34,413 nt of DNA from a virus: IMG/VR virus record IMGVR_UViG_3300013233_000110, positions 1 to 34,413 of that record; one strand, written 5' to 3'. The notes beneath the pieces are model-generated. The model did not search any database. It was given only the letters and a program-made list of their open reading frames with translations, and was not told where the DNA came from. The position numbers were made by a program, and so were the translations under genes. Shown here one piece after another: positions 3,384 through 30,565 of this stretch (positions are counted from its first letter, which is position 1; each line of letters starts with the position of its first letter).

Positions 3384-3384
3384 C

Positions 3385-3395
3385 GGGTGCGCGTA
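3385..3395 (+). repeat. GGGTGCGCGTA, copy 1
   Basis: Exact 11-bp copy starting two bases after the terminase large-subunit stop codon (TAA-C-GGGTGCGCGTA). It lies in the 33-base gap before the GNAT gene, a module boundary. Confidence 0.7.
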
Positions 3396-3416
3396 AGCTG
3401 AAAATGCCCGCATACG

Positions 3417-3875: not shown

Positions 3876-3876
3876 G

Positions 3877-4176: not shown

Positions 4177-4179
4177 CCC

Positions 4180-5853: not shown

Positions 5854-5890
5854 GGATTGAAAGTAAAGCAGGCACAACAGGAGTCGTGAG

Positions 5891-6208: not shown

Positions 6209-6209
6209 C

Positions 6210-6220
6210 GGGTGCGCGTA
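6210..6220 (+). repeat. GGGTGCGCGTA, copy 2
   Basis: Exact 11-bp copy with the same offset as copy 1 (TAA-C-GGGTGCGCGTA) after the staple-like gene. It is followed by a 32-base gap before the Bbp19-like gene, where the capsid morphogenesis unit starts. Confidence 0.7.
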
Positions 6221-6252
6221 CCTAAAAAACCATCCCATAAGGTTGCTGTATC

Positions 6253-7237: not shown

Positions 7238-7255
7238 AATAAAAGGAGATAAATC

Positions 7256-8275: not shown

Positions 8276-8301
8276 TAAAACGGAAAATAGGAGATAGCAA
8301 A

Positions 8302-8754
8302 ATGATTACAGACGCACTCTTGCAGCTTTCCGCTGCACAGGCCGTTACCGCTACTGCGGTTTCAGCCAACACCATCGACCTCGGCGTAAATCGCGATATC
8401 GGAGCCGGTGAAGATATTTATGCCGTATTCGGTGTTGATGTCGCTGTTACTGCTGCCGGCCTCGCAACGGTTGCTTTCGAGGTCATCTCGTCTGCATCGG
8501 CAAATCTGGCGGCACCGACGGTGATTGCCTCATCTGGTGCAATCCCGAAAGCTGACCTGTTAGCAGGGCGAGCACCTATCACGGTATGCGTGAATCAGTC
8601 TGCATTGACATCATTGCCGATTGGTCAACGCTATCTGGGTGTCCGGTATGCTGTGACAACTGGCCCATTAACAGCAGGTTCATTCACTGCAAATATCACC
8701 GATTCAGAAGTGAGCGTGGGTAAAAATTATCCAAGCGGCTTCTCTGTCGCGTAA
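8302..8754 (+). CDS. Bbp16-family capsid cement protein
   Basis: This 150-aa protein matches the Bbp16-family cement proteins of BPP-1-like phages, which sit on the outer capsid surface and stabilise it. Recognisable parts are the N-terminal MITDALLQLSAAQAVT, the strand-rich middle (STNTIDLGVNRDIGAGEDIY-like region), PKADLLAGRAPITVCVN and QRYLGVRYAVTTGPLTAGSF. It is hydrophobic and small-residue-rich, fitting a jelly-roll. ATG 8302 has a good ribosome site (ataggagatagcaaa). It directly follows the major capsid gene, the standard position. Confidence 0.9.
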   Translation: MITDALLQLSAAQAVTATAVSANTIDLGVNRDIGAGEDIYAVFGVDVAVTAAGLATVAFEVISSASANLAAPTVIASSGAIPKADLLAGRAPITVCVNQSALTSLPIGQRYLGVRYAVTTGPLTAGSFTANITDSEVSVGKNYPSGFSVA

Positions 8755-8766
8755 CGGGGGTGATTT

Positions 8767-8940
8767 ATGCCTAAGTATCGCACAGACGTGGATCGCTGGC
8801 TCTCGCATGAGAACCGGGTTGTGAAAGCAGGCGAAGAGTTCGAGACGACGTTCCCTAAAGGAATGAAGCTCGGCGACACCCTGCACTTGGTTAAATCTTC
8901 CACCAAGAAGGAAGACGAAAAGAAAGTACCGGCAGAATAG
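8767..8940 (+). CDS. Small conserved phage protein, 57 aa
   Basis: The ORF runs from ATG 8767 (after gggggtgattt) to TAG at 8938. The product, MPKYRTDVDRWLSHENRVVK followed by AGEEFETTFPKGMKLGDTLH, ends in a charged tail (STKKEDEKKVPAE). It lies 12 bases after the cement gene and just before a terminator hairpin, so it closes the capsid transcription block. The 'RVVKAGEEF..TFP.G' pattern looks like a small barrel of the kind used for head decoration or completion, but I cannot name a family. Confidence 0.75.
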   Translation: MPKYRTDVDRWLSHENRVVKAGEEFETTFPKGMKLGDTLHLVKSSTKKEDEKKVPAE

Positions 8941-8959
8941 CCAGCAACGTAAAGCAATG

Positions 8960-8988
8960 ATATGGGGGCCACGGTGCCCCCATATTTT
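8960..8988 (+). terminator. Rho-independent terminator after capsid block
   Basis: A perfect 10-bp stem (ATATGGGGGC at 8960-8969, GCCCCCATAT at 8976-8985) with a six-base loop is followed by TTTTAT. It lies between the capsid genes and the tail-tube A gene, whose ribosome site aggaggg begins three bases later. It is likely to reduce transcription of tail genes relative to capsid genes, or to be overridden by antitermination. Confidence 0.8.
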
Positions 8989-9003
8989 ATAGGAGGGTTA
9001 GAT

Positions 9004-9672
9004 ATGGCTACCGAAGAAGATATTTGCAACCTGGCGCTGTCGCATCTTGGCGATACAGCTACGGTGGCAAGCCTTAACCCACCAGAAGGCTCAGCACAGG
9101 CCGAACACTGTGCGCGGTATTTCCCGATTGCGCGCGACACATTACTTGAGATGCATACGTGGCGATTCTCCATGCGCCGCATAGCTCTGGCAAAATTGAC
9201 CAGTAACTGGCCCGAATGGGACTTTGCCTATGCAAAACCATCAGCCGCGCTAAAGGTTTGGGCTGTGCTATCACCCAACGCAACCGATGATAACAGTGCG
9301 CCGGGGCGCTTACCGTCCGCTATTGCTCCGCAAGTCACATCAGGCTGGGGTATTTACACACCACAACCATTTTCAGTTGAAGTTGATACAGATGGCGCAG
9401 AGGTGATTTATACTGATCAAGACAACGCTGTACTGAGATATACCACGGTCGTTACCGATACCAGCCGCTTTTCACCATTGTTCGTGATGGCCTTGTCGTG
9501 GCATCTAGCTTCGATGCTGGCAGGTCCAGTAATTAAGGGAGATGCAGGAGCAGCAGAGGCCAAACGGTCCACCGGCATGATGCAGTCATATTTATCACAA
9601 GCCATGGAGTCCGATGCTAATCAGCAGCACCAGAGAGTGCAGCATAACGTAAACTGGATGACGGGCCGATAA
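9004..9672 (+). CDS. Tail tubular protein A-like (head-tail adaptor)
   Basis: The sequence ATEEDICNLALSHLGDTATV followed by EGSAQAEHCARYFPIARDTLLEMHTWRFSMRR is the signature of the T7 gp11-type tubular protein A/adaptor family. This protein forms the ring joining portal and nozzle. The length is 222 aa. I chose ATG 9004, behind aggagggttagat; the longer ORF from 8962 would begin inside the terminator stem. The gene ends one base before the tubular protein B gene. Confidence 0.88.
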   Translation: MATEEDICNLALSHLGDTATVASLNPPEGSAQAEHCARYFPIARDTLLEMHTWRFSMRRIALAKLTSNWPEWDFAYAKPSAALKVWAVLSPNATDDNSAPGRLPSAIAPQVTSGWGIYTPQPFSVEVDTDGAEVIYTDQDNAVLRYTTVVTDTSRFSPLFVMALSWHLASMLAGPVIKGDAGAAEAKRSTGMMQSYLSQAMESDANQQHQRVQHNVNWMTGR

Positions 9673-9673
9673 G

Positions 9674-11719
9674 ATGGCACGCATAAGGACATTAGAGCGC
9701 TCGTTCGGCGGGGGCGAGCTATCACCGGAAATGTTTGGCCGGATTGACGATAGCAAATATCAGAGCGGTCTTGCACTGTGCCGTAACTTTATCACCAAAC
9801 CACAGGGTCCAGCAGAAACCCGGCCAGGCCTTGCTTTTGTGCGCGAGGTCAAAGATTCAACCAAGGCCGTGCGACTAATACCGTTCACTTATTCAACCAC
9901 CCAGACCATGGTGATTGAGCTTGGAGTTGGTTATATCCGCTTTCACACGCAGGGATCAACGCTGCTCTCTGCCGGCGTTCCTTACGAGGTCGTGAGTCAA
10001 TATGCCGAGGCCGACCTGTTCGATATTCATTACGTGCAGTCGGCAGACGTGTTGACGCTAACGCATCCAAACTACCCACCAGCAGAGTTAAGGAGGCTTG
10101 GCGCGACAAACTGGACTCTTACCAATATTGACTTTGCGCCAACCATCCTGCCACCGGCCGGAGTTACAGCAACATCAAGTGGTGCGGGTGTTGAGTACGA
10201 CTATAGTTATGTTGTGACCGCCTTAATCCCTGATGGGATCACAGAATCAGCAGCTAGCGCAGCAGGAACATGTACCAACAACTTATTCGTCACCGGTGCA
10301 AAAAACACGCTCGCCTGGACGGCTGTTGCTGGTGTACTGAAATATAAAATCTATAAGAATCAGGGCGGTCTGTACGGCTATGTTGGGGAATCGCTGATAG
10401 CTTCATTCGTCGATGATAATATTGCTCCCGATCTCTCTGTGGTTCCTCCAATTTATGATACCGTGTTTGCTGCCCCCGGCGATTACCCGGGTGCTGTATC
10501 GTACTTTGAACAGCGTCGCAGTTTCGCGGGCACAACAAACAAACCGCAAAATATTTGGATGACTCGCAGCGGAACGGAATCGGTAATGAACTATTCGCTA
10601 CCTGTTCGCAGTGATGACCGCATTGCCTTTCGTGTGGCTGCGCGCGAAGCGAACACGATCCGGCATATTGTCCCGCTCACGCAACTATTATTGCTGACTA
10701 GCTCGGCAGAATGGCGCGTTACGTCAATCAATTCCGATGCAATCACACCGACCACAATTAGTGTGCGGCCACAATCGTATGTTGGGGCATCCAACGTGCA
10801 GCCGGTGATTATCAATAACTCACTGATATATGGTGCGGCACGAGGCGGACATGTGCGCGAGCTTGGCTACAACTGGCAGGCCAACGGTTTTGTGACGGGC
10901 GACCTGTCGCTTCGTGCAACACACTTGTTTGATAATCTGGACATTGTCGATATGGCGTACAGTAAAGCGCCCCAGCCGCTGGTCTGGTTTGTTTCCACGT
11001 CCGGCAAATTGCTTGGCCTAACCTACGTTCCCGAGCAGCAGATTGGTGCATGGCATCAGCATGATACGCTAGGCATGTTTGAAAGCTGCTGTGTGGTTGC
11101 TGAGGGGAACGAGGACGTGCTTTATGTGGTGGTGAAACGAACCATCAATGGCGCTCAGGTGCGCTATGTTGAACGCATGGCAACGAGACTATTCAACACA
11201 CAAGCTGATGCGTTCTTTGTTGACTCCGGCCTGACGTATCAGGGCGCAGCAACCACCACCATAAGCGGCCTGACCCACCTCGAAGGTGAAACGGTGAGCA
11301 TTCTTGCAGACGGGGCGGTGCATCCTCAGCGGGTGGTATTGAATGGCGCAATCGCACTGGATAACGCTGCGTCCATAGTGCATATCGGTCTGCCTATTAT
11401 TGCAGACTTGCACACGCTACCGGTAGCAGCACAGACCGATGGAAGCTTTGGGCAAGGGCGGTATAAGAACGTCAATAAGGCATGGCTCAGGGTGTATCGC
11501 TCCAGTGGAATCTTTGTTGGGCCTGATGTAAATAACCTGGTGGAAGCAAAACAACGCACAACCGAGCCGTTTGGTTCGCCTCCGGTGTTAAAGACGGAAG
11601 AGATTGATTTAATGCTTACCCCAAGCTGGGGGGATGGCGGCCAAGTCTATATCCGGCAAATTGATCCACTACCGCTTACCGTGGTCAACCTGACCCTTGA
11701 GATTGCACTCGGAGGGTAG
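9674..11719 (+). CDS. Tail tubular protein B-like (nozzle)
   Basis: The protein begins RIRTLERSFGGGELSPEMFG, then DDSKYQSGLALCRNFITKPQGPAETRPGLAFV. This opening is conserved in T7 gp12-like nozzle proteins of epsilon15- and BPP-1-like phages: a GGG-ELSP motif, then 'GxxxCRNFxxxPxGxxxxRPG'. The rest is beta-rich, as expected for propeller and platform domains. A fibronectin-like insertion is suggested near residues 155-235 (PAGVTATSSGAGVEYDYSYV). At 681 aa its length is usual. It would form the short tail tip through which DNA and internal proteins pass. A copy of GGGTGCGCGTA follows its TAG stop. Confidence 0.88.
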   Translation: MARIRTLERSFGGGELSPEMFGRIDDSKYQSGLALCRNFITKPQGPAETRPGLAFVREVKDSTKAVRLIPFTYSTTQTMVIELGVGYIRFHTQGSTLLSAGVPYEVVSQYAEADLFDIHYVQSADVLTLTHPNYPPAELRRLGATNWTLTNIDFAPTILPPAGVTATSSGAGVEYDYSYVVTALIPDGITESAASAAGTCTNNLFVTGAKNTLAWTAVAGVLKYKIYKNQGGLYGYVGESLIASFVDDNIAPDLSVVPPIYDTVFAAPGDYPGAVSYFEQRRSFAGTTNKPQNIWMTRSGTESVMNYSLPVRSDDRIAFRVAAREANTIRHIVPLTQLLLLTSSAEWRVTSINSDAITPTTISVRPQSYVGASNVQPVIINNSLIYGAARGGHVRELGYNWQANGFVTGDLSLRATHLFDNLDIVDMAYSKAPQPLVWFVSTSGKLLGLTYVPEQQIGAWHQHDTLGMFESCCVVAEGNEDVLYVVVKRTINGAQVRYVERMATRLFNTQADAFFVDSGLTYQGAATTTISGLTHLEGETVSILADGAVHPQRVVLNGAIALDNAASIVHIGLPIIADLHTLPVAAQTDGSFGQGRYKNVNKAWLRVYRSSGIFVGPDVNNLVEAKQRTTEPFGSPPVLKTEEIDLMLTPSWGDGGQVYIRQIDPLPLTVVNLTLEIALGG

Positions 11720-11720
11720 T

Positions 11721-11731
11721 GGGTGCGCGTA
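11721..11731 (+). repeat. GGGTGCGCGTA, copy 3
   Basis: Exact 11-bp copy after the nozzle gene stop (TAG-T-GGGTGCGCGTA). It lies in a 56-base gap before the internal virion genes. Confidence 0.7.
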
Positions 11732-11775
11732 AATAAAAGCAACAGGCTTACATTCGCAAGCATAGGAGTATTGTA

Positions 11776-12300
11776 ATGGGATTCGGTACAAGCATGGCAT
11801 TGCAAGCAGGCGGCGCGGCCACATCGGCAGTCGGTAGTTTTTATGGCGCAAAGAGTCAGAAATCAAGCCTTAACTTTCAGGCGCAGCTTGCAGATATTAA
11901 CGCTCGCATGGCTGAACAGACTGCACAATCGGAACAATTAAAGGGGCAAAAGCAGGTTGCTGCCCAGACATTGCAAGCTGGCCAACTCAAGAGCAAGCAG
12001 CGGGCAACGATGGCCGCTAACGGCATTGACTTGGGTGTAGGCAGTGCTGCAGAAGTACAGGCATCCACTGACATCCTGAAAGAAATCGATAAGAACACCA
12101 TCGAGGCCAACTCGGTACGCAGCGCATGGGGCTATCGCACGAAGGGCACGAGCTTCAAGAATGATGCCCTGATCAAGCGAGCCTCTGCATCATCCATTGA
12201 TCCGTTCGGCAGTGCTACGACTTCCTTGCTTGGGGGCGCGTCGAGCATTTCAAAATCATATTATGATTACTCCAAATCAAAAAAAGGTAAGAAAACGTAA
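11776..12300 (+). CDS. Internal virion protein, T7 gp14-like
   Basis: A glycine-rich, weakly hydrophobic N-terminus (GFGTSMALQAGGAATSAVGS) leads into a long alanine/glutamine-rich helix (QLADINARMAEQTAQSEQLK) and the conserved-looking MAANGIDLGVGSAAEVQAST. This is the layout of the small ejected core protein (T7 gp14 type) that enters the outer membrane during infection. ATG 11776 has a good ribosome site (ataggagtattgta). The 174-aa gene overlaps the next gene as TAATG, and the order small, medium, giant internal protein is that of T7 gp14-gp15-gp16. Confidence 0.8.
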   Translation: MGFGTSMALQAGGAATSAVGSFYGAKSQKSSLNFQAQLADINARMAEQTAQSEQLKGQKQVAAQTLQAGQLKSKQRATMAANGIDLGVGSAAEVQASTDILKEIDKNTIEANSVRSAWGYRTKGTSFKNDALIKRASASSIDPFGSATTSLLGGASSISKSYYDYSKSKKGKKT

Positions 12301-14036
12301 TGCCAACAGTACCCGTTTATAACGGCATTCAAGTCACGCCAAGCACTAAGCCACTAACTCAGGTGAGTGCGCCACAGTTCCAGGACTTCGCATCTGCTAA
12401 CGCACAGCGGCAGGGGCGGGCTATGCAGCAACTTGGTGGCGAACTGGGCAGGCAAGCCACTGAAATGCAACTGGACGCGAATCATTCCATCGTCACCGAG
12501 GCAATGAATGCATCAGTGCAACATGAACAGGAGCTTGAACTGGGCGACAACGGCTACTCCAAGCTTCGAGGCCGTGACGCGCTCGATAGACCTCAAGGGC
12601 AAGCCTTGTGGGATGAGTACGGGACCCAATTGGACAAGGCGAATGGAGACATCGCCAAGAGCATGCTGAAAAACGGGGCGCAGAAACAAGCTTTTGAAGA
12701 AGCCACGGCCCAGCGTCGCGTTACATTCACCTCACGCATCATGCGGCACGCCTCCACTGAACAGAAACAGTACAACCTGAGCGTGCAGCAGGGCACGATT
12801 GATGTGGCAAACAACCGACTTGCCTTGTCCGGTGGCGATCCGGAAGTGGTAGATGACAGTGTGAATGCAATCAGAGGCGCAGTCCTGGAACTCGGTCGGT
12901 TGCAAGGTAAAGCCCGCGAAGAGATTGCTGCTGATATGGTCGATGCGCTCTCTCCCGGTCATGCTGCAGTCATTAGCAGTGCGGTGGATTCAGGGCGAAC
13001 TAATTTTGCCGAGCAGTACCTGAGCACGCACAGCGAAGAGCTGACATCAGCGGCGCGCATTCAGATGGTAAAATTAGTCAAAACCGGCGAACTGATCGGT
13101 AAGGCACAAGATCATGCTGATTCAATCATGGCCAGCGGTGTCACTGATGCGGAAAAGATAGCAGCAGCCCGGAAGATTACCGACCCAAAGCTTCGTGATG
13201 CAGCGGTGACGCGGGTAAAGGCAAGGATTAACGAAACCCATGCGCTGGATAGTCAGTTAAAAGCAGATCGCTATGACCAAGCAGCACAGCTTGCAGATCA
13301 AGGGCATGAAGTGCCTGCATCATTGCGAATCGGTCTGTCTCCATCCCAGATGAACACGCTGGATAAGCTTTATGCTAAGAGGGTTGCCGGTGAGCCAATC
13401 CAGACGGACGAAGTGACTTACGGCGAGTTCTCCCTTATGCCCACTGATCAACTGGCGAAGATAACCCCGCAACAATACCATGAGAGGTACCGGGCGGCGT
13501 TCGACGATTCTCATTATGAGGGTGGCTTGAGCCTGATTCGTGCGGCACGCGCAACTGTAGCGAAAGAAGGTCAACGAGATACGCACCGGTCTATTCTCAG
13601 TTTCGATGCGGCGTTTAAGACGGTGGCGGCAGAGGCTGGTGTAATCGGGACGGGTGGCATTAAAAAAATGAGCGGCGATGACTTCAAGTCTTGGGGTCGT
13701 ATGCGCCAAGAGGCCTCCCGACGCGTGAACGAACTAGAAAGCAGCACGGGAAAGAAAGTCACCAGCGAAGAAATGCTTAAAATAAGCAGACAGGTGCTGG
13801 CTGACAAGGTCTATTTGGATCAGTTCGGGACTGACCCTCAGGTTCCAATATCCGGCGTTGCTGCCGATGAATTGAGCGATGCTTATGTGGTGGTTGACGG
13901 TAAGGAAGTGCGCTTATCCAGTGTTCCATTTAACGACCGCGCACAGATAACGGAAGCGTTCCGCAGGCAGCAAGGTCGCGAGCCAACTCAGTTGGAGATA
14001 GCGACCGCATGGCGACGACATAAAGGTGGTGAATAA
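12300..14036 (+). CDS. Internal virion protein, T7 gp15-like position
   Basis: This 578-aa, mostly helical and charged protein begins PTVPVYNGIQVTPSTKPLTQ and carries the repeated 'Q-G-R-AMQQLGGELGRQATEMQLD' type helices. Such N-termini are common in the middle-sized ejected core proteins of podoviruses. No transmembrane segment or enzymatic motif is evident. It is coupled at both ends (TAATG at each junction) to the small and giant internal virion genes. By position and composition it should line the channel of the ejection complex across the periplasm. Sequence similarity to T7 gp15 itself is not something I can claim. Confidence 0.75.
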   Translation: MPTVPVYNGIQVTPSTKPLTQVSAPQFQDFASANAQRQGRAMQQLGGELGRQATEMQLDANHSIVTEAMNASVQHEQELELGDNGYSKLRGRDALDRPQGQALWDEYGTQLDKANGDIAKSMLKNGAQKQAFEEATAQRRVTFTSRIMRHASTEQKQYNLSVQQGTIDVANNRLALSGGDPEVVDDSVNAIRGAVLELGRLQGKAREEIAADMVDALSPGHAAVISSAVDSGRTNFAEQYLSTHSEELTSAARIQMVKLVKTGELIGKAQDHADSIMASGVTDAEKIAAARKITDPKLRDAAVTRVKARINETHALDSQLKADRYDQAAQLADQGHEVPASLRIGLSPSQMNTLDKLYAKRVAGEPIQTDEVTYGEFSLMPTDQLAKITPQQYHERYRAAFDDSHYEGGLSLIRAARATVAKEGQRDTHRSILSFDAAFKTVAAEAGVIGTGGIKKMSGDDFKSWGRMRQEASRRVNELESSTGKKVTSEEMLKISRQVLADKVYLDQFGTDPQVPISGVAADELSDAYVVVDGKEVRLSSVPFNDRAQITEAFRRQQGREPTQLEIATAWRRHKGGE

Positions 14037-17000
14037 TGGACGGCAATCCATATCTGGAATTAGTTCCCAAGCAAGATACCAACGACACTCCAGTAAACCC
14101 GTATGATGAGATAGTTGCATCAGATATGGACCGGCAGGCTGCTGCAATCCGGCAGTCTGTGTCAGTGGGCATGGAAACTAAGCCGGAAGATCAGGCGCGA
14201 CGGATGAAATTGGCTAAAACCACCGGCCTACCGGTGGCGGCAGTTGCTGTGAGCCAGTCTGCAATCGAGAAGAAGACCAAGCTGGATTCCATTGATTATG
14301 TGAAAATGGTGAAAGACAATCCGAACTTGGCGCGGTGGCTAAAGAACCCGGACAATGCCGCACTTTCACACGCTGATCATAAAAATCTTTCTGTGCTGGA
14401 GAAGTCCTTAACATTTCTAAAGCCAGCAGTGCAAACGGCTCGCGCAATACCCGCAGGGTTACAGAAGTTCAGCACCAACGTCACTTATGGCGCAGGCAGG
14501 CTGGGATCAGCTCTTGCCAGTGATTTTATCGGCAAACCGCTTGCAAGAATCTTGCCCGGTCAACCGACCGACCCATTCGCCACCATGCGTGATGCGTTCA
14601 CCGAGCTACAAAAGCAAGGGCTTGATTTAGGTGATGCGATTGCGGGAGAACAAGCCGATAGTTTTACTGGCCGCGCGATTGTTGCCGGAGGCGAGTCTTT
14701 AGGCCAAATGCTGCCAGGGCTGCTTGCTACGGTGATCACGAAGAATCCGCAATACGCCTTGCTGGCAGGGGCAGCGGGGGCAGGACTACAGGCTTCATCC
14801 ACCGGTCTAGATAAAGGTTTAAGCGCGGCTCAGTCGTTGGCCTATGGTGCAGAAGATGCGACAGCAGAGTATGTCACTGAGCTCATACCGATGGGTAAAC
14901 TGGTGAAGGATTTAAAAGCAGGGGCCCCGTTTTGGTCGCTGCTCGGCAATCAGATTGTGCGGGAAGTGCCTGCCGAACTGGTGGCGACACCGTGGCAAAA
15001 TTTCAACCAATGGGCAAATCTAAATGCAGATAAACCGTTTAGCGACTACCTAAAACAACTTCCAGAGGATGAGGCTGCAACACTCATTTCGACCATTACC
15101 ACAACAGTCCTGACGGCAGGGTTCGCCCATGGTGTGCAGAAGGCTGTTCGGCACGTTGAGAAACAGGCTAAGCGCAAATTGATTGATACCATGGTTGAGA
15201 GCACTAAAGCGGTCGATGGTAAACAGCGCATGGACGCTGCAGCTAAAGCAGTATCTGATGCTGATTTAACGACAATCAGCCCCGAAGATATGCGCCGCTA
15301 CATCAAGCACGTTGCGCCAGACGAGGCGGTATCACTATCGGCTGATGATGCGGCTACATTCTTTCAGTCCAATCCTGATGCCGCCACCGCATTGCAGGAG
15401 AATGCGCCGGAAGTGTATGCGCAATTAGCGGTTTCAGAAGCGACCGGCTCCGATGTGAAGATTCCCATGGAGGACTATTTAACCTCGCTTGGCGATTGGA
15501 CGTCATTTCTTAATGATCACATCAAAGTGGGCGATGGCACCATGAGCTTTGCTGAATACGAATCATCAGCGGACAACTTGATTGCTGACATTAGCGCGGA
15601 AGCAGAGCGAGCCATCAACGATGCAGGGAGTGAGTTCAACGCTTCTTCTCAAAAGGTGCGTGCATCCTTCTCTCAATCGCTCACCGACACTAAACGATTC
15701 ACGCCTGACGTGGTGGAAAAATACAGCGAATTGATGAGTAGCATAACGGCAAGTCTTGCGTCACGCAGCGGCATGACTCCCGAAGAGTTTGCGGATAAGT
15801 ACCAGTTGCTTGCTCAAACTCCAGACCGACAGGTGCAGCAAGCCCAGCAGCGCGCCGATGAAATAGACCACGCCATTTATGCAATCCGGTCTGGCAATGC
15901 TCCCTCCGATAGCCAAGTTCGCGGGCAGTCACTGCTTGATTTCCTGAAAGAAGCCGGTGGTTTAAAAGACTCCGGCGGTGAACTGAAGGCGCGCGACGCA
16001 AACGCTGGCCGCAAGCCATTCAAGAAGAACCTAGTTCATGATAAGGGGAATAGCCTAGATAAGGCCGCAGAACTGGCACAGGAAGCCGGATTTATACCCG
16101 AGCGCGACATTAACAAGTTACTTGATGGCATAGACAGCGAACTGGCTGGCGAACCCGTATACGCCGATGCTAATTTCAATCAGGATATGGAAGATCAATC
16201 GCGCACTATTGGTGATGTTCAGCAGCGCTTGCATGATCTTGGTATTGATGACATCAGCGGAATGAGCAATGCAGACGTACGCGACGCGCTTGGTGCTGAT
16301 TATAATCAGAAAGGCAAACCAGTAGCCGTATTGACCGGTGACGAGGTTCTGTCATTAGATGGGGATGTTACAAAAGCCGTCACCAAGTACTTCAACGCCG
16401 AATTAAGAGGGCGTGATGATGTTTCATTTACAGATGCAGACGGTGAAATTCATAAGGTCATATTTAAGACAAAGGGCTTGAAAAAATATCGCCATGGTGT
16501 CCCGCATGATCAGGGAAAAGCTCAGCTTCTACCCTCTGTTCCTGACATTATTAAGAAGGGTAAATATCTTGGTCGAGATGCGGTTGAACAAGAGAGGAAG
16601 GATAAGACAGTTGCATTTCATTTCTTTGATGCTGATGTGGAGATTGCCGGTGAGCTAATGACAGTAACGGTTTCAGTTGGTGAGGATCAAACAGGGAAAT
16701 ACTTTTACAACTTACGGCATGATGATGATCCCGTACTGCAAAAGAAGAAAGGTCACCTGGTGAAACCGGATGTAAGTGATCCAGAAGCAGGTGACCTTAA
16801 CGCAAGTATAGTCCAGTCGTCGAAAAATGACAATAAAGGTGAGTTTTTCCAGTCAAGTGAAGAGAAAAACCTATATGTAGTCCATAATCTTTCTAGCGAA
16901 AATTTAGCACACGCTGAAAAGATGGGCGGAATCGCAGTCCCTTCTCTAGCAGTAAATAAAGTCGGCACGGGTGCGCTAACAGGATTTGGTGAAATTACCC

Positions 17001-20000
17001 TGATTGCCGGTAGCGATTTGATTGACTCCAAGTCTGCAAAAACATTCAACGCTGATGTTTATTCACCGCGCTATCCAAGCACCGAGAGGGTGGTTAGTCA
17101 CGCTGGATATCGTGATGTATTTGCAGGTGTTAATGCAATAGCAGATAAGTACGGATTAAGCCATGCAGATAAAGACTTGATTCAGCGTAATGAGATAGAC
17201 TCGTTCAAGAGGTCGGAATCTATCAAGGCTGCTTATCTTGACTCGCTAGGTAAATCACCACGGGTTAAAATGACGACAGATACTATCCCACCGCGCATGC
17301 GTAAATTCGCTGGTAAAGATAGCTATGAACTATATCGCTCCAATGCCTTCGCCGAGGCAGTAGAGGGAGAGAACAACGATAAAAGACAGAAGTTTGTCGA
17401 GCATGGCCGCATGACGCAGGAAGACGCAGACGCTGCCTTTGGTGAAAAGCCAAGCGATAACATGCTTTATTCCCGCTCACGGTCAGTCGCCAACATGAGA
17501 AAAGGAAAATATCCATCGTCGTCTGACAACAGGGTATCTATAGGCAAGCGATTCGACTCATTAAGCAAAAAGCAAAAAACTGAATATAACCAATGGGTAG
17601 ATGATAAGGTGGAGTCAGTCACCGATAAAGAGCAGATATTTGATGGTCATACGAATAGTGGTGCTCGCAAGCTTCTGCCACACAACCTTGATACCGTAGT
17701 TCGCATTATGAAGCGCAATTTGCGTGATGGTGAAGGATTTAATTACGGCTTAGGTTCAATTCGCTCAACCGTAGCAAATCAATTCAGAAGCATTGCAGCA
17801 ATTAAGAAAGCACGCAATGACATTATTAGCGCGGAAGATATGGATGCCGTAAAGACTGAAATTGAGACCGAATATGAGGATTTAAAGGCGAAGCTTGAGC
17901 CATACGACACCGTTTATTCTGGTGATATATTTGATGATTCACTTAAAGAACTGGCAACCAACGGCGCAAGCTCATTTAAAGATTATTATCCTAATCTGCC
18001 GGATGATGTGCGTCATAGTGTATCAAGCTTTCTTGGTAAGCTGCGAAACCTGCCGACGGAGTATTTTGAAACGAAAATGCAACGAGCAGTTGGGCTGAAT
18101 GAATTTACTGGCGCAGTTGTTCCGTCTGATGCAAGCAAGGAAACGATAGCAACCCTAAAGAGTAACGGGCTGAGCATTGTAAAATATAAACCGAATGACA
18201 AGGCTGCCCGCGAGAATGCACTTGAGCGATTGAGTAAGCGTCATGGCCTTCTGTTTCAGGGCTCTGGTGGGGTTCGAGGTTCTATCCAGTTCCCATCCAC
18301 CGACTTAACCGACGGCGCAAGCCTGCTGACCATCATGGAAACCGCTGATCTTTCCACTGTCCTGCATGAAATGGGTCACTTTTATTTTGAAACGCTAAAC
18401 CATATCGCGACACAGCCAGGTGCCCCCCAGCAGATTATTGACGATGTGAACACCCTTATCAATCATGCCGGCATCGAGTCCATGGAAGCATGGAACAGCA
18501 TGAGTATCGATGAGCGTAGAGCCGCCCATGAGCAGGTCGCGGAAGAGTTTGAACATTATATCCTTGAGGGTAGAGCCCCGGCAACTGGCCTGCGTAAACT
18601 ATTCCGCACGCTTAAATCTTGGATGGTGTCCGTTTACCGCAACAGTCTGCCGCGCCTATCCAATCTCAATGATGATGTTCGCAGCGTGTTTGATCGACTG
18701 GTGGCAAGTGAAGATGAGATTGCGGCAGCAAGGAATGAATTGTCTGCTGATGCGTTACTTACCACGGCAGAAGATGCCGGAATGAATGACGCTGACTACG
18801 CTCAGTATCTTAATGACATCAAGGAAACGGCCCAATTGGCGGATGAGCTCCTATCCAAGCGTAGTGTAGCCGATATGAAATGGCTCGATGGTGCATTGGG
18901 TAAAGAATTACGCGCCATCCAAGCTGACGCAGCAGAGAAACGAAAAATCATGAAGGCCGAAGTGACTGACGATATCTATTCGCGTCCGGTCTATGCCGCA
19001 TGGCGCTATCTGACGCACGGGATCGCACCCGAAGGCGCACTGATCGAAGGTAAAACACGATTAAGCACCGTTGCGCTGCGGGATATGTACGGCAAGGACG
19101 ATAACGCTTTATGGCGGTCGCTGCCTATCCGGAGCGGGAAATATTCAATGGTAAGCAAGGATGGTATTCATCCCGATGAGTTGGCGGCTGTGTTCGGCTT
19201 TGATTCGGGCGATGCTTTGGTGCGTGCGCTTACCGAAGCAGACAAGCCATCTGATGTTATCAAGTCAGAAACCAACCGGCGCATGCTTGAGCGTTACGGC
19301 GATCTTGTTGATGAATCTGCCCAGCGTGAAGCGGCCATGGAATCTCTGCATAATGCGAACAGTGAAAAGGTTATCCGGGTAGAATACGCGGCGCTGAATA
19401 AGATTGCCGGCCAGCGTGGCAACATAACTCGCAATGCGTTGCGTGATTATGCCGAAGCAGCCATCGGCGCTATGGAAGTGATGGCCGTCCGTCCCAATGA
19501 TCACCTACGAGCGGAGCGCAAGGCCGCGAGAGCAGCGCAAGCGGCATTCGGAAAAGCAGATATACAAGAGGCGGCCAAACAGAAGCGCATCCAGATGATC
19601 CAGCAAGCCTTGTATTCGCAAGCGGTAAAAGCCAATAACAATGCAGAAAAAGCACTGAATTACTTAAATAAATTTAATTCGCCCGGTGTGCGCAAGAATA
19701 TCGACCGAGATTATCTGGACCAGATTGATGCGATACTGGAAGTGTACGACCTGCGCAAGTCAGTCAGCAACAAAGCCATCCAGAAGCGGCAGGCGCTGGT
19801 AGCATGGATCGAGCAGCAGAAAGAGAATGGAATGGAGCCCACCTTTGATGCGGCCATCATTGCCAGAAAGCAGCATTACAAGACCCTGAGCGTGGATGAC
19901 TTCCTCGGTGTGCGTGATGCAGTCAAGCAGATTGACCATTTTGGCAGGATGAAGCACAAATTACTGACAGCCAAAGATAAGCGTGAGTTTGATGCTATTG

Positions 20001-21994
20001 TCGATGACGCTTCGAAGCTTATCACGGAGAACGGCAAAGAAAGGTCCGTCCAGCTCGAAGGTCGCGGCACGTTCAAGAAGTTCCAAGAAAATTTCAGAGC
20101 AGGGCACCGCAAGCTGAACAGTTTATTCCGTCAGTTCGATGGAGGTAAAGACGGCGGCCTTATCTGGGAATTACTGGGCAGGACCATGAACGCAGCCTCA
20201 GATAAAGAAACCGGCATGATCATGGATGCAACACAGCGACTCACTGAAATCTACAAGCCCATTATGGGCCTGAGGGGCGGCTTAAATGGGGATAAACAAT
20301 ATATCCCCGGCATCCAGTCGAGCTTAACCCGCGCCGGTCGCTTATCTGTCGCTCTAAATTGGGGCAATGAAACAAACCGAAAGCGCGTCATGGATGGCGA
20401 TAATTGGAATGCAGAGCAGGTGAATGTTATCTTGAAAACATTGTCTCCGGTTGAGGCTAAGTTTGTAAATGATGCATGGTCGTTGATTGATGAGTTTTGG
20501 CCGGAAGTGGCTGCGAAAGAAAAGCGGATCACCGGCATTGAACCTGAGAAAGTCATGGCGGAATCATTTGAAATGGAATTATCTGATGGCTCAATTGTCA
20601 CCATGCGCGGCGGCTACTACCCAATCAAGTACGATACAGACCGCGATCAGAAGTCAGCACAGCATGAAGAAGAGGGTAAAGCTAAGGATATGCTTCGAGG
20701 GGCGGCAACACGCGCCACCACACGCAGAGGACACACCAAACAACGTGCTGAGTTTGTTGGCCGTCCAGTTAAGAAATCACTCGATGTGATTACCCAGCAT
20801 ATTAGCGAGGTCGTGCATGACTTATCATGGCATGAGTGGTTGATTGATGCTAATCGCATTATAGGGTCACATCGCATTGATCAGGCCATCAGGAACTACT
20901 ATGGGCCCAGTATTGTAAGCACCATCAAGGCGGATATTTTGGCTATTGCTGGTGGAGATTTAGCGACACAGGACGCGGTTGATACAGCGCTGCTCTATCT
21001 CCGGTCAAACATTTCACGATCAACCATGGGGCTATCTGCAACTACCGGTCTACTGCAACCGTTTGGGCTGTTTCAGTCCATCGTTCGTATCGGTCCGAAG
21101 CATGTATTTCGTGGCATGGCACGATGGGCGGGTGATGCTAGTAAGTTTGAAAATAGCATGAAGTGGATTAGTGAAAAGTCAGTATTTATGAAGCATCGGC
21201 GTTTAACTTTTAATAAAGAGCTGCGTGAAATCAATGGGCGGGTAAGCAAAGGTCACTCGAAGGCTCGTCAAATTTATGACGCTAGCCTGTTTATGCTCAT
21301 GCAAAAGATGCAGCTAGTGGCAGATGTCCCGACATGGATCGGCGCATACGAGAAAGCAATCGATGAGGGCAATGATGATGCTCGCTCGGTAGCTCTTGCA
21401 GACCAATCCGTGTTGGATTCACAAGGCGGCGGCGAAACCAAAGACCTGTCGCAGTTCCAAACTAATCACCCTATGTTGATGATGTTCGCAAGCTATTTTA
21501 ACACAACATATAACTTGATGAGCGAATCCACCGCCAAGACCAACTTTAAAGATCCGCTGGCAGTGGCCGGTTGGATTTCAGACATGGCAATGCTCGCAGT
21601 CATTCCCGCCCTAGCTCCGGCGATTATTTTGGAACTGTTGAAAGGCGGTGGATCAGATGATCCGGAAGATTGGGCTAAAAAATTGGTGCAGTGGGAAGCT
21701 GGCTATCTGATGGGGCTGATGATTGGCATACGCGAGATGAGCGGCGCAGTTCAGGGGTTCTCTTACTCGGGACCGCCTGCTGGTCGGCTGGTGTCGGACG
21801 CGGCGCGACTAAGCACGCAAGTCACGCAAGGCGATGCGGATCGAGCAGCAATCGAAGCTACTGTGAAAATACTTGGTTCAGCGATGGGAATACCATCGGT
21901 GCAGGCGCTACGCAGTTACAAAGGGTGGGAGGCATGGGCTGATGGAGACGCGCCAGTGACTTCAATCCTTGTTGGCCCCCCGCCTAGAGATTAG
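14036..21994 (+). CDS. Giant polyvalent internal virion protein with metalloprotease motif
   Basis: At 2652 aa this is nearly a quarter of the window. I see hydrophobic/Gly-rich segments near residues 219-258 and about 340-360. An LPD3-like polyvalent-protein domain lies at about 770-905 (GELMTVTVSVGEDQTGKYFY), and a 'YVVHNLSSENL' domain at about 946-1040. A zinc-peptidase motif HEMGH at 1444-1448 is preceded by DLSTVL, with acidic EEFEHY at 1503-1508 as the likely third ligand. A hydrophobic stretch lies at about 2515-2537 (AMLAVIPALAPAIILELL). The layout fits large polyvalent proteins injected with phage DNA, in the T7 gp16 position. No lysozyme motif is visible. The start overlaps the previous stop (TAATG). 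Confidence 0.85.
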   Translation: MDGNPYLELVPKQDTNDTPVNPYDEIVASDMDRQAAAIRQSVSVGMETKPEDQARRMKLAKTTGLPVAAVAVSQSAIEKKTKLDSIDYVKMVKDNPNLARWLKNPDNAALSHADHKNLSVLEKSLTFLKPAVQTARAIPAGLQKFSTNVTYGAGRLGSALASDFIGKPLARILPGQPTDPFATMRDAFTELQKQGLDLGDAIAGEQADSFTGRAIVAGGESLGQMLPGLLATVITKNPQYALLAGAAGAGLQASSTGLDKGLSAAQSLAYGAEDATAEYVTELIPMGKLVKDLKAGAPFWSLLGNQIVREVPAELVATPWQNFNQWANLNADKPFSDYLKQLPEDEAATLISTITTTVLTAGFAHGVQKAVRHVEKQAKRKLIDTMVESTKAVDGKQRMDAAAKAVSDADLTTISPEDMRRYIKHVAPDEAVSLSADDAATFFQSNPDAATALQENAPEVYAQLAVSEATGSDVKIPMEDYLTSLGDWTSFLNDHIKVGDGTMSFAEYESSADNLIADISAEAERAINDAGSEFNASSQKVRASFSQSLTDTKRFTPDVVEKYSELMSSITASLASRSGMTPEEFADKYQLLAQTPDRQVQQAQQRADEIDHAIYAIRSGNAPSDSQVRGQSLLDFLKEAGGLKDSGGELKARDANAGRKPFKKNLVHDKGNSLDKAAELAQEAGFIPERDINKLLDGIDSELAGEPVYADANFNQDMEDQSRTIGDVQQRLHDLGIDDISGMSNADVRDALGADYNQKGKPVAVLTGDEVLSLDGDVTKAVTKYFNAELRGRDDVSFTDADGEIHKVIFKTKGLKKYRHGVPHDQGKAQLLPSVPDIIKKGKYLGRDAVEQERKDKTVAFHFFDADVEIAGELMTVTVSVGEDQTGKYFYNLRHDDDPVLQKKKGHLVKPDVSDPEAGDLNASIVQSSKNDNKGEFFQSSEEKNLYVVHNLSSENLAHAEKMGGIAVPSLAVNKVGTGALTGFGEITLIAGSDLIDSKSAKTFNADVYSPRYPSTERVVSHAGYRDVFAGVNAIADKYGLSHADKDLIQRNEIDSFKRSESIKAAYLDSLGKSPRVKMTTDTIPPRMRKFAGKDSYELYRSNAFAEAVEGENNDKRQKFVEHGRMTQEDADAAFGEKPSDNMLYSRSRSVANMRKGKYPSSSDNRVSIGKRFDSLSKKQKTEYNQWVDDKVESVTDKEQIFDGHTNSGARKLLPHNLDTVVRIMKRNLRDGEGFNYGLGSIRSTVANQFRSIAAIKKARNDIISAEDMDAVKTEIETEYEDLKAKLEPYDTVYSGDIFDDSLKELATNGASSFKDYYPNLPDDVRHSVSSFLGKLRNLPTEYFETKMQRAVGLNEFTGAVVPSDASKETIATLKSNGLSIVKYKPNDKAARENALERLSKRHGLLFQGSGGVRGSIQFPSTDLTDGASLLTIMETADLSTVLHEMGHFYFETLNHIATQPGAPQQIIDDVNTLINHAGIESMEAWNSMSIDERRAAHEQVAEEFEHYILEGRAPATGLRKLFRTLKSWMVSVYRNSLPRLSNLNDDVRSVFDRLVASEDEIAAARNELSADALLTTAEDAGMNDADYAQYLNDIKETAQLADELLSKRSVADMKWLDGALGKELRAIQADAAEKRKIMKAEVTDDIYSRPVYAAWRYLTHGIAPEGALIEGKTRLSTVALRDMYGKDDNALWRSLPIRSGKYSMVSKDGIHPDELAAVFGFDSGDALVRALTEADKPSDVIKSETNRRMLERYGDLVDESAQREAAMESLHNANSEKVIRVEYAALNKIAGQRGNITRNALRDYAEAAIGAMEVMAVRPNDHLRAERKAARAAQAAFGKADIQEAAKQKRIQMIQQALYSQAVKANNNAEKALNYLNKFNSPGVRKNIDRDYLDQIDAILEVYDLRKSVSNKAIQKRQALVAWIEQQKENGMEPTFDAAIIARKQHYKTLSVDDFLGVRDAVKQIDHFGRMKHKLLTAKDKREFDAIVDDASKLITENGKERSVQLEGRGTFKKFQENFRAGHRKLNSLFRQFDGGKDGGLIWELLGRTMNAASDKETGMIMDATQRLTEIYKPIMGLRGGLNGDKQYIPGIQSSLTRAGRLSVALNWGNETNRKRVMDGDNWNAEQVNVILKTLSPVEAKFVNDAWSLIDEFWPEVAAKEKRITGIEPEKVMAESFEMELSDGSIVTMRGGYYPIKYDTDRDQKSAQHEEEGKAKDMLRGAATRATTRRGHTKQRAEFVGRPVKKSLDVITQHISEVVHDLSWHEWLIDANRIIGSHRIDQAIRNYYGPSIVSTIKADILAIAGGDLATQDAVDTALLYLRSNISRSTMGLSATTGLLQPFGLFQSIVRIGPKHVFRGMARWAGDASKFENSMKWISEKSVFMKHRRLTFNKELREINGRVSKGHSKARQIYDASLFMLMQKMQLVADVPTWIGAYEKAIDEGNDDARSVALADQSVLDSQGGGETKDLSQFQTNHPMLMMFASYFNTTYNLMSESTAKTNFKDPLAVAGWISDMAMLAVIPALAPAIILELLKGGGSDDPEDWAKKLVQWEAGYLMGLMIGIREMSGAVQGFSYSGPPAGRLVSDAARLSTQVTQGDADRAAIEATVKILGSAMGIPSVQALRSYKGWEAWADGDAPVTSILVGPPPRD

Positions 21995-25498: not shown

Positions 25499-25587
25499 TG
25501 AGCATTGTAATTGCCGCTCAGGCATGGCTAGGCACGCCGTATCACCACCAGGCGCGTTTCGCGCGGGGTAAGGGCAGCGCGACCTAA
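25498..25587 (+). pseudogene. Remnant of NlpC/P60 phage peptidase (29 codons)
   Basis: The short ORF encodes MSIVIAAQAWLGTPYHHQAR and nine more residues before a stop. The AQAWLGTPYHHQ-R block is the N-terminal signature of phage/GTA NlpC/P60 cell-wall peptidases. In intact proteins it is followed within about ten residues by the catalytic Cys of a V-D-C motif. Here the frame ends before any Cys, so no peptidase can be made. Both ends keep TAATG overlaps with the neighbours, so the remnant may still be translated and serve to couple the next gene. Confidence 0.7.
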
Positions 25588-26559: not shown

Positions 26560-26988
26560 ATGGCATTCGACCCATTAACAGGCATCCTAAATATAGGCGG
26601 TAAGCTAATTGATAAGCTTATCCCTGACCCAGAGGCTAAAGCCAAGGCTAAGCTAGACCTCGCTGTATTAGCGCAGGACGGTGAACTCAAGGAATTAGAA
26701 ACCCGCATGAGCGCAATCCTTGCAGAGGCTAATTCATCTGACCCTTGGACTAGCAGAGCAAGACCTAGCTTCTTGTATGTTATTTACCTAATGATACTCG
26801 CAGCTATCCCTATGGGCTTCTTAGCTGCCTATAGCCCTGATACAGCATTAACTGTCACAAAAGGCATGAAAGCTTGGCTAGCGGCTATCCCTGAGTCTAT
26901 GTGGGGATTGTTTGGGGCTGGTTATCTTGGATACACAGGAGCGAGAGAGTTTGGCAAGCACAGTAAGAATAAGCACGGGGGTAATTGA
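26560..26988 (+). CDS. Holin, 3TM GTA-type family
   Basis: The product of 142 aa begins FDPLTGILNIGGKLIDKLIP, has a charged amphipathic middle with DPWTSRARPSFLY, and then membrane spans at about 71-90 and 104-125, ending in a basic tail. This is the pattern of the 'holin of 3TMs, for gene-transfer release' family. It would permeabilise the inner membrane to release the M15 endolysin. ATG 26560 has aggag six bases upstream. Its TGA overlaps the next start (TTGATG). Confidence 0.85.
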   Translation: MAFDPLTGILNIGGKLIDKLIPDPEAKAKAKLDLAVLAQDGELKELETRMSAILAEANSSDPWTSRARPSFLYVIYLMILAAIPMGFLAAYSPDTALTVTKGMKAWLAAIPESMWGLFGAGYLGYTGAREFGKHSKNKHGGN

Positions 26989-28576: not shown

Positions 28577-28697
28577 TGCGTAAATGTACTGGTTCATACA
28601 CAGAGCCAGCGTGTGTCTTATGTATGTTAACGACATCAATGTCGTCGACATGATATAAACCCGCTAGTTCATCTAGGCGCTACCTAGCAACCTGTTG

Positions 28698-28762
28698 TGT
28701 CTAACTTTTTTCCGTAACTTATTGATAAGATTGACGCAGAAACCCCTTGTCGGTTAGACAAT
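28698..28762. repeat. Candidate integrase arm sites, left of core
   Basis: TGTCTAACT at 28698-28706 and its reverse complement form GTTAGACAAT at 28753-28762 match the pair right of the attachment core. Arm-type integrase sites of tyrosine recombinases are short repeats of this kind flanking the core. Confidence 0.55.
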
Positions 28763-28802
28763 AAGGGCGTTAAGTGATTGTTAATAAAGGATAGTGGATC
28801 AC

Positions 28803-28848
28803 ACTGGGGGTGTAGTGGTCGGAGGTTCAAATCCTCTCGTCCCGACCA
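28803..28848 (+). other. attP: attP core: 3' part of tRNA-Pro(GGG)
   Basis: From CTGGGGG (anticodon loop with GGG) through the T-arm GGAGG-TTCAAAT-CCTCT and the acceptor strand CGTCCCG-A-CCA, this segment has the 3' part of a proline tRNA. The sequence before it cannot form the 5' half, so no complete tRNA is present. Integration here would restore the host tRNA 3' end. The integrase gene lies 101 bases away, the usual arrangement. Phage genes continue on both sides, so this is attP and not attL or attR. Confidence 0.82.
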
Positions 28849-28904
28849 TTTTCTCTTTATATAACAACATATTACAGGATAGTTAGATTGCACACTAAAT
28901 AGGC

Positions 28905-28934
28905 ATTGTCTAACTATTTCGATATTGTCTAACT
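28905..28934. repeat. Candidate integrase arm sites, right of core
   Basis: ATTGTCTAACT occurs exactly at 28905-28915 and again at 28924-28934, a 19-base period, between the attachment core and the integrase gene. With the two copies left of the core they make a four-site array. Confidence 0.6.
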
Positions 28935-28949
28935 TTCTTATCATGTTTC

Positions 28950-29888
28950 TCATTTTGTAGGCTCAACCTCCCACGGTTTGATCTCGTAAAAACGCTTCGT
29001 TACCTTGTCGCTGGAATGACCTAAAAGCTTGGTGGCATTTCCCTTGGTGTCGCATGCTGCCTTTGTGCGTAAATCACGGAACTGAAAGCGGTCAATGCCT
29101 GCGTCTGCAGCCTTTCTGCATAAGCGCTGCCAGGCTGACTTGAAGCCGCTGGCCGTGTATCGCTGGCCGTGCCGGTTGGCGATGATGTGCCTGCTGTTGT
29201 TGCCTGCTTTCCTTGCCAATGCCACCGCGTCGATCAAGGCATTGCTCCACTTAAATATCATTTTTCTTCCTGTTTTGCTTGTTTGGTGGTGGATTCCATC
29301 TTCTTTAATGTTTTCGTCTGTCAGGCTTAGTATATCACCAAGGCGCAAGCCTGTTAAGAAGGCAATGTCCATTGCTGCCTGCACAATCGGGGTCGCTAAT
29401 GTTCTAACCTGTTTGTATTCCTCATCGGTGACGTATCTATCGCGTGCGTTTGAGCCGTTCTTTTTAACACCGATACATGGGTTCTTATCAACCACGCCAT
29501 TCATCATCAGGTAGTTCATGATGCTGGAGATAAGTGCTTTTTCTCGATCTGCTCCAGCCTTCGTTTTTTTGCTTCTAGCTTGATGATATTGGTATATGTG
29601 ACTTGGCCTAATTTCATGCGGCATCATTTTTCCAAACGATTTAATCAAATTCTGCACAATTAGAAGTTCCAGCTTTTGCGTTGTCGCCGCTTTGGTTGGT
29701 GTAATTTCCTTAATGTACTTTTCAATATGCGCGTGCATGTTCGCGCCACCAATGGTTTTTATCTCCGCAAGGGCGCGATACATATCACTTTCAGTCTTGC
29801 CTAACCTGATCCACTTGCGTTCAAGATTAACGTAATAATATGCGTTATGCTTAAAGTACACGCGGGGCGGCAATTTACGCTTTGTCAT
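28950..29888 (-). CDS. int: Tyrosine recombinase integrase
   Basis: The integrase catalyses site-specific recombination between attP and the host tRNA-Pro gene. The catalytic set is visible: R182 (LTGLRLGD), K205 (TSKTG), R271 and R274 (FRDLRTKA), H291 (LLGHSS) and the nucleophile Y301 (RFYEIKP). The first box position is Arg where many family members have His, a known variant in phage integrases. The N-terminal 60 residues (PPRVYFKHNAYYYVNLERKW) form the arm-binding domain. At 312 aa it is slightly short but complete. Its start overlaps the xis-like gene by 14 bases, so it is the last gene of the leftward operon. Confidence 0.95.
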   Translation of the reverse strand: MTKRKLPPRVYFKHNAYYYVNLERKWIRLGKTESDMYRALAEIKTIGGANMHAHIEKYIKEITPTKAATTQKLELLIVQNLIKSFGKMMPHEIRPSHIYQYHQARSKKTKAGADREKALISSIMNYLMMNGVVDKNPCIGVKKNGSNARDRYVTDEEYKQVRTLATPIVQAAMDIAFLTGLRLGDILSLTDENIKEDGIHHQTSKTGRKMIFKWSNALIDAVALARKAGNNSRHIIANRHGQRYTASGFKSAWQRLCRKAADAGIDRFQFRDLRTKAACDTKGNATKLLGHSSDKVTKRFYEIKPWEVEPTK

Positions 29889-30090
29889 TCATCCAATCCG
29901 TAGAGAAATTATCATCGTTCACTTCCTTTCCTTTCAGTCCAAGGGCTGCATTCAGAGCCTCGGACGTAGTGAAAGGCCAGCCGTCACGATCCACAAAGAA
30001 GCGCACACGTTCCATCGTAAGCTTTGTTTTCAGCTTATCACGATAGCGAATCTTGAAATGATCTTTTAGTTGTTCGGCTGATACAAGCAT
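29875..30090 (-). CDS. DUF4224-like/excisionase-position protein, 71 aa
   Basis: ATG 30090 comes one base after the SSB stop (TGATATG), so translation is coupled; the longer ORF from 30168 would lie inside ssb. The product has a helical start (LVSAEQLKDHFKIRYRDKLK) and the ERVRFFVDRDGWPFTTSEAL segment, which recalls the short DUF4224-type proteins encoded next to phage integrases. It overlaps the integrase start by 14 bases. A recombination directionality or repressor-like DNA-binding role is inferred from position only. Confidence 0.6.
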   Translation of the reverse strand: MLVSAEQLKDHFKIRYRDKLKTKLTMERVRFFVDRDGWPFTTSEALNAALGLKGKEVNDDNFSTDWMNDKA

Positions 30091-30091
30091 A

Positions 30092-30565
30092 TCAAAAGGG
30101 AAAATCGTCATCGACTGGGACATTACCCTGCGCTGGCTGCCCGGCAAAAGGATCGTTCTGCTGCCCACCCTGCGCTGGAAAGCTTTGGCTCTGCTGCGCT
30201 GGCTGCTGTTGGCGCTGGTTGTTCTGGCCTTGGTTGTCCTGCTTGCCGCCGAGCATCTTCATTTCACGGGCGCGGATTTCAGTCGTGTATTGATCCTGGC
30301 CATCTTTGTTCTGCCATTTCCGCGTTTCGATCTGGCCTTCGATGTAGCACTTTGCGCCTTTGGTTAAATACTGATTCGCTATTTCACCCAAGCGGCCCCA
30401 TAACACCACACGATGCCATTCGGTTTTTTCTACTTGCTCACCGGCTTTGTTCTTAAATTTCTCGGTAGTGGCAAGGCGCAGATTGCAGACGCACGTTCCA
30501 TCTTGCGTGAAACGCGTCTCTGGATCAGCACCTAAATTTCCGATCAACATGACTTTATTTAGCAT
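30092..30565 (-). CDS. ssb: Single-stranded DNA-binding protein
   Basis: This is a clear bacterial-type SSB: OB-fold start [19 protein letters not shown], then [20 protein letters not shown] and [17 protein letters not shown] Gln/Gly-rich linker follows, and the conserved acidic tip DDDFPF binds partner proteins. At 157 aa it is a normal length. ATG 30565 has an excellent ribosome site (aaaaggagaataaat). In this operon it coats single strands made by the exonuclease for use by the annealing protein. Confidence 0.96.

Follow-up and report, generated by a model that had tools for sequence, protein, structure and literature searches.

A predicted lambda-type attP with a tRNA-Pro(GGG) core in a podophage most likely infecting Zetaproteobacteria

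Results

Organization of the predicted attachment site

The window analyzed here, 34,413 nt of the linear virus record IMGVR_UViG_3300013233_000110, very probably contains the attP of a temperate podophage, a lambda-type substrate of the adjacent integrase built on a tRNA-Pro(GGG) core. In line with an attP on a tRNA-Pro(GGG) core, as proposed in the initial annotation, a gene for a lambda-family integrase adjoins the site, the core is an exact match to bacterial genes, and arm-type sites flank it and are kept in relatives. The features are listed below, with offsets counted from the last base of CCA; L097 and L099 are the loci of the two closest integrase relatives, L159 that of a more distant one, and L149 and L151 are intact tRNA-Pro loci.

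28698–28705, plus strand: arm-type site P1, TGTCTAAC, offset -150; in L099, TGTCTCAC occupies this offset and strand
28715–28727, minus strand: predicted IHF site TATCAATAAGTTA, exact consensus, offset -133; shared with L097, L099 and L159
28753–28760, minus strand: arm-type site P2, inverted TGTCTAAC, offset -95; in L099, TGTCTCAT occupies this offset and strand
28771–28783, minus strand: predicted IHF site TAACAATCACTTA, one mismatch, offset -77; position occupied in 11 of the 42 att regions of the family
28801–28848, plus strand: attP core, 3' part of tRNA-Pro(GGG) with encoded CCA, 48 nt, exact match to bacterial genes
28804–28810, plus strand: putative overlap for strand exchange, the anticodon loop CTGGGGG enclosed by the two stem halves, placed from where host identity starts
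28862–28874, plus strand: predicted IHF site TAACAACATATTA on the CCA side, one mismatch, offset +14
28907–28914, plus strand: arm-type site P'1, offset +59; TGTCTCAC at +59 in L097 and L151
28926–28933, plus strand: arm-type site P'2, offset +78; TGTCTCAC at +78 in L149 and L151
28950–29888, minus strand: tyrosine integrase gene (int), lambda Int family, 312 aa, reading toward attP
29875–30168, minus strand: candidate excisionase of 97 aa whose reading frame overlaps the start of int; match to a PHROG excisionase family at E 6.8e-5
30092–30565, minus strand: ssb gene, DNA closest to Zetaproteobacteria

The structural genes of the window are of podophage type and include a terminase, a Head-tail_con portal and a tail protein that is 75% identical to the BPP-1 tail protein over its full length. 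The attP lies between the structural and lysis side and an early region encoding the integrase, the candidate excisionase, ssb, a YqaJ-type recombinase and RecT, and ARAGORN detected no whole tRNA in the window. Both observations bear out the initial annotation, according to which phage genes occur on the two sides of the core and the 5' half of the tRNA is absent. Its further proposal of unintegrated DNA fits an internal attP flanked by phage genes, the record itself being linear; a search of the window ends for a terminal repeat of 10–199 nt found none. An ORF of 89 aa on the minus strand (28684–28953) that spans the attP is probably spurious, because its frame crosses the tRNA segment. Elsewhere in the window, positions 14036–21994 encode a 2652-aa protein with the polyvalent-protein domains LPD22 and LPD3 and a PBECR5 nuclease-like domain.

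Integrase and candidate excisionase

The integrase carries the catalytic domain PF00589 (E 1.3e-10). Of the positions taken here as catalytic, R182, K205, R274 and H291 were invariant in an alignment of seven members and Y301 in one of three members, and the window integrase has R in place of the first H of HxxR. A profile of the seven members matched full-length lambda Int (1z1b, E 2.1e-27), covering residues 1–346 of lambda Int, as well as the solved arm-binding N-terminal domain of lambda Int (1kjk, E 0.004), and it is by this profile that an N-terminal arm-binding domain is recognized; the window integrase as a single sequence aligned to lambda Int only from residue 78. Further, the predicted structure (mean pLDDT 84.9, pTM 0.56, from an alignment of seven) had lambda Int as its best PDB matches, with a large whole-chain rmsd of 14.6–16.6 for the six best.

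In the phages collection, the top matches, which include the integrase of Salmonella phage ST64B, were 34% identical, and a scan of viral_contigs with the window integrase alone gave no relative. A tail-protein scan yielded 80 loci of at most about 22 kb each, a length at which int may fall outside, and among them integrase matches were limited to L001, which represents the window, and L002, where the match was weak. Integrase relatives were obtained from genomes and alignments. The class to which a Mariprofundus MAG belongs, here called Zetaproteobacteria following the papers cited below (NCBI taxonomy puts Mariprofundus under 'Mariprofundia'), was covered by 78 genomes. Some match was present in nine of them and a strong match in two, namely in genome G002 (61% identity; L097/L106) and, partially, in G038 (58%; L099).

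The candidate excisionase had no match in Pfam at E 0.001; on the L106 contig, a stretch of 67 aa matched it at 36%. This contig (G002:C88), on which the 61% integrase is encoded, also harbors a serine recombinase, a C5 methylase and a second tyrosine recombinase, and may be another type of mobile element.

The core corresponds to the 3' end of tRNA-Pro(GGG)

The segment initially described as 46 bases of tRNA-Pro(GGG) with encoded CCA is correctly assigned, but it measures 48 nt (28801–28848). The exact 48-nt core was found in eight stretches of genome_contigs, which holds one genome per species for 84,980 species, and all eight lie within an intact tRNA-Pro(GGG). Seven of these genomes belong to the Zetaproteobacteria set and the eighth is a Halieaceae MAG. 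The core thus equals the tRNA 3' end including CCA, and the gene would be restored by integration. Identity with the host starts 3 nt to the left of the anticodon loop, the phage bases just 5' of the core being TC as compared to CT in the host stem; strand exchange would therefore be placed most simply in the anticodon loop, at 28804–28810.

Both L097 and L099 also abut a tRNA-Pro(GGG) 3' segment, which, together with the exact core in eight intact genes, supports the host site predicted at first. Integration of relatives at other sites had been named as a possible refutation; the two close ones (61% and 58%) are at tRNA-Pro(GGG), while distant ones (28–42%) use other tRNAs. Beyond CCA, L099 runs into a bacterial coproporphyrinogen-oxidase gene, which marks a phage–host junction. 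The tRNA-Pro of the bin containing L097 differs from the L097 core, so that the binning may be wrong.

A tRNA-Pro core is also common to the viral contigs L003 (6462–6540) and L004 (6094–6172), with 88.6% identity over 79 nt that extend beyond CCA. Their integrase has no similarity to that of the window, and both contigs were excluded from the arm-site test; L003 had no exact TGTCTNAC and a single site with one mismatch, and by eye its core is flanked by different repeats, of the CACTACACTAG type.

Zetaproteobacteria as the most likely host

Iron-oxidizing Zetaproteobacteria are the most likely host, as judged from the core, the integrase and the ssb gene. When 398 genomes sampled evenly from the phylum were searched, the integrase matches that scored next best were 33–40% identical. 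Over 320 nt, the window ssb was 67–79% identical to genes of Zetaproteobacteria, and its 32 best-scoring matches (31 genomes) in the 398-genome sample, which is rich in Zetaproteobacteria, were all from this class; the first match outside it had 70% identity over 246 nt, with shorter outside ones reaching 82% over 68 nt. This suggests that the phage acquired ssb from its host class. On the lysis side, the product of the ORF at 26560–26988 shared 70% identity over 131 aa with a gene of a zetaproteobacterial genome (L272, G070:C66), where it perhaps sits in a prophage.

A gammaproteobacterial host, from the Halieaceae or similar, would leave the attP itself real and would account for the one Halieaceae MAG among the eight exact-core genomes. 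We consider it unlikely, given that 18 of the 140 genomes of the family of this MAG had an integrase match, with the best-scoring at 32% as compared to 61% in Zetaproteobacteria, and that ssb is nearest to Zetaproteobacteria.

Other results speak against a zetaproteobacterial host. No prophage of the window phage was seen, and searches of the zetaproteobacterial genomes returned no match to the window portal in the 78 genomes, in a search run without a positive control, no DNA match below E 0.00128 to window positions 1–20000 and, by DNA similarity, no CRISPR spacer to the window. One spacer candidate (L269, G013:C258; 32 nt, 94%, window 25525–25556) was rejected because it lies outside any direct-repeat array and is surrounded by phage-like genes.

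Also against this host, the tail protein is, among named phages, nearest to that of Bordetella phage BPP-1 (75%). The parts available of two studies on zetaproteobacterial phages describe a 32-gene phage cluster of M. ferrooxydans PV-1, with MP29 and D3112 as the phages it resembles most (PMC3179512), and iron mats with Mu-like phages, Inoviridae and a spacer-linked Mu-like phage (PMC8114936). Among the matches listed in the partly available literature on phages and prophages of Zetaproteobacteria there was no BPP-1-like phage, which does not prove absence.

Arm-type repeats and predicted IHF sites are kept at the same offsets in close relatives

TGTCTAAC occurs four times in the 34,413 nt, both strands included, and all copies lie within 28698–28933. 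In dinucleotide shuffles of the window, the mean was 0.69 copies, with at least four in 2 of 100; as the motif was picked after the cluster had been seen, comparative evidence outweighs this count. The starts initially given for the first two repeats, 28698 and 28753 (inverted), were right, while those of the last two (28905 and 28924) were 2 nt too low, the actual ones being 28907 and 28926; P'2 begins 19 nt after P'1. Putative IHF sites were scored against a consensus that we take to be that of IHF. Its exact form, TATCAATAAGTTA, occurs once in the window, with 0.22 expected and at least one in 17 of 100 shuffles. The repeats occupy both sides of the core at conserved offsets, as expected of arm sites in a lambda-type attP, and IHF-consensus matches, here predicted sites, lie at conserved offsets between the arms and the core.

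L099 has arm sites at -150 (plus strand) and at -95 (minus strand, one mismatch) and IHF matches at -133 (one mismatch) and -77. L097 has IHF matches at -133, at -77 (one mismatch) and at +14 (one mismatch), and TGTCTCAC at +59, its contig ending at +77. On the P side of L097, a scan for TGTCTNAC found none and TTGCCACA is present at about -150 and -95. The conservation of arm repeats with the integrase, named as a check in the initial annotation, hence holds for TGTCTCAC and TGTCTCAT, found at the same offsets and strands, and breaks down on the P side of L097.

In gapless comparisons of the P arm, identity between the window and L099 was 32/46 in the sites and 14/59 in the spacers, and between the window and L097 it was 30/46 and 13/59, respectively; register 0 was the best of 81 in both cases. 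The sites are thus kept while these P-arm spacers are at random identity. Spacers were above random elsewhere, namely in the P' arm between the window and L097 (25/54) and in the P arm between L097 and L099 (26/59). For L159, with an integrase of 42% identity, the comparison with the window gave 25/46 for sites and 19/59 for spacers, and register 0 was again the best.

P'-like sequence next to intact tRNA-Pro genes

We also inspected 38 intact tRNA-Pro loci (30 plus the eight exact-core ones; four genomes occur twice, and one is Halieaceae). In L151 (zetaproteobacterial genome G037), an exact IHF match lies beyond the intact tRNA-Pro at +14, with TGTCTCAC at +59 and +78, a layout equal to the P' arm map of the window. 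L149 has the +14 and +78 elements, L148 the same with a mismatch in the arm element, and L143 the +14 element only; the predicted IHF site at +14 was detected in L097, L114, L143, L148, L149 and L151. In L148 and L149 (G034 and G035), about 95 nt of P'-arm-like DNA separate the intact tRNA-Pro from a histidine-kinase gene, and with this gene so close behind the tRNA these stretches look like remnants of earlier insertions and are probably scars of them. In L149, an HU/IHF-family gene (786–1064) lies about 0.4 kb upstream of the tRNA-Pro, the predicted attB. Two further loci, L133 and L138, with TGTCTAAC at +58 and +57 and TGTCTCAC at +27 and +26, respectively, were discounted by eye, the first element looking like the start of a reading frame.

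Conserved offsets in the wider integrase family

The wider family comprised 96 loci with integrases 28–42% identical to that of the window. A tRNA 3' end with CCA was present within 700 nt of the int stop in 47 of them, representing several tRNAs, while many contigs among the remaining 49 end at the int stop. Together with the window, L097 and L099, this made 50 regions, reduced to 42 by removing similar rows.

A minus-strand IHF-consensus match with at most one mismatch occurred exactly at -77 in 11 of the 42 regions and at -133 in four; on the plus strand, matches were found at +4 in four, at +5 in three and at +14 in three. The highest peak in 300 circular-shift controls was 3, and the reversed consensus also gave 3. 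Apart from the 11, L192 had a match at -78, and L193 and L212 had one at -77 on the other strand. The 31 regions that lack the minus-strand match at -77 do so in part because some are attL.

Direct 8-mer repeats in the CCA-side arm were counted in 41 regions, leaving out L099, whose CCA side is host DNA. They recurred at spacings of 19 (seven regions), 21 (nine), 22 (eight) and 24 (nine), as compared to a maximum of 6 over all spacings in 60 shuffle trials; a spacing of 10 also reached 7 of 41, and spacings of 20 and 23 were not above the shuffles. We then asked where each phage places its own repeat, using the 13 of 24 regions picked as attP-type that had an exact P' repeat at a spacing of 17–25. 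Counted without a shuffle control, a copy was present near -150 (direct) in five of the 13, including L159 with one mismatch at -146, and near -95 (inverted) in five of the 13, including L159 with one mismatch. At these two places, L190 and L254 had no copy and L207 none that fitted; L205, L253 and L261, whose cores derive from tRNAs with a long variable arm, had copies elsewhere, and L203 was uninformative, its arm being off the contig. Arm motifs differ among these phages, as exemplified by TGTCTAAC, TTTGTAAG and GTCCCAAA.

On balance, we favor the view that the family attP is a rigid, ruler-like module, with arms at about -150 and -95 and IHF sites at -133 and -77 held at nearly fixed offsets, past which int has repeatedly moved from side to side. 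Within such a ruler, the arm sequence and the tRNA target would, somewhat more probably than not, change while the offsets from the tRNA 3' end hold.

The int gene lies beyond the CCA side in the window and beyond the anticodon side in L097 and L099, as it does in 8 of the 47 family loci. On a tree of 42 of the 49 integrases (near-copies were dropped and L099 was left out as partial; three rows are on long branches), the side label needs five changes, and well-supported branches force five. L196 and L204, with integrases 73% identical, have int on opposite sides, with a common tRNA core and -77 match. It is reasonably probable that int, as a separate unit, switched sides several times, even between integrases 60–73% identical.

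Two other readings of the site can be set against these data. The TGTCTAAC repeats might be repressor operators or excisionase sites rather than integrase arm sites, as small repeats near phage promoters often are operators and the assignment to arm sites is sequence-based; we hold this to be very improbable, since the repeats flank the core at offsets and on strands kept in relatives, and other phages of the family fill comparable places with a different motif. That the tRNA piece is one end of an integrated prophage (attL or attR), as exemplified by the attR of L099 and as a linear record with no end repeats found might suggest, is less probable still, because the core lies inside the record between phage genes, the window holds no whole tRNA, and arm sites lie on either side where L099 has a host gene on the CCA side.

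Discussion

Our preferred reading, an intact lambda-type attP, implies a mechanism in which arm and core binding, a role for IHF and integration by this phage are all inferred from DNA and protein comparisons. The catalytic part of the integrase would bind the tRNA-derived core and its N-terminal domain the TGTCTAAC arm sites, while host IHF would bend the DNA between arm sites and core. The core would then recombine with the same 48 nt of the bacterial tRNA-Pro(GGG), restoring the tRNA including CCA.

This arrangement resembles phage lambda, whose Int is hetero-bivalent and whose attP has the order arm, IHF, arm, IHF, core, IHF and arms, according to the available part of PMC4880445 (see also PDB 5j0n and 1z1b). 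Unlike in lambda, the core of the window is tRNA-derived, and two P' arm sites were found as compared to three. The spacing of lambda attP also differs, and its arm sequence is unrelated to that of the window.

Arm- and core-type sites beside a tRNA are likewise described for IntS of the KplE1 prophage at argW in the accessible part of PMC2951348, where IHF was used in the excision assay. However, the argW-intS pair is of the STI class, with the intS promoter overlapping attL, whereas the window int converges on the tRNA and would fall into the OC class of int–tRNA orientations of that study, in which, as far as the same part reports, int was not self-regulated in either of the two OC cases tested. 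Bordetella phage BPP-1 (Rauchvirus), with the 75% identical tail protein, also has a tRNA-derived attP at the int end of its genome, although annotated as tRNA-His, and no reverse-transcriptase cassette of the BPP-1 type was noticed among the listed ORFs of the window.

From these results, both a host and an attB can be predicted concretely for a podophage of Zetaproteobacteria, marine iron oxidizers, and genetic tools for this class might be integrated at the predicted attB. Broader in scope and newer than the attP itself are the proposed ruler and the shifts of int from side to side. With them comes a collection of related attP sites that hold their geometry while their arm motifs vary, so that sequence data would allow tests of arm-site specificity and of the rules by which lambda-type recombination complexes are spaced.
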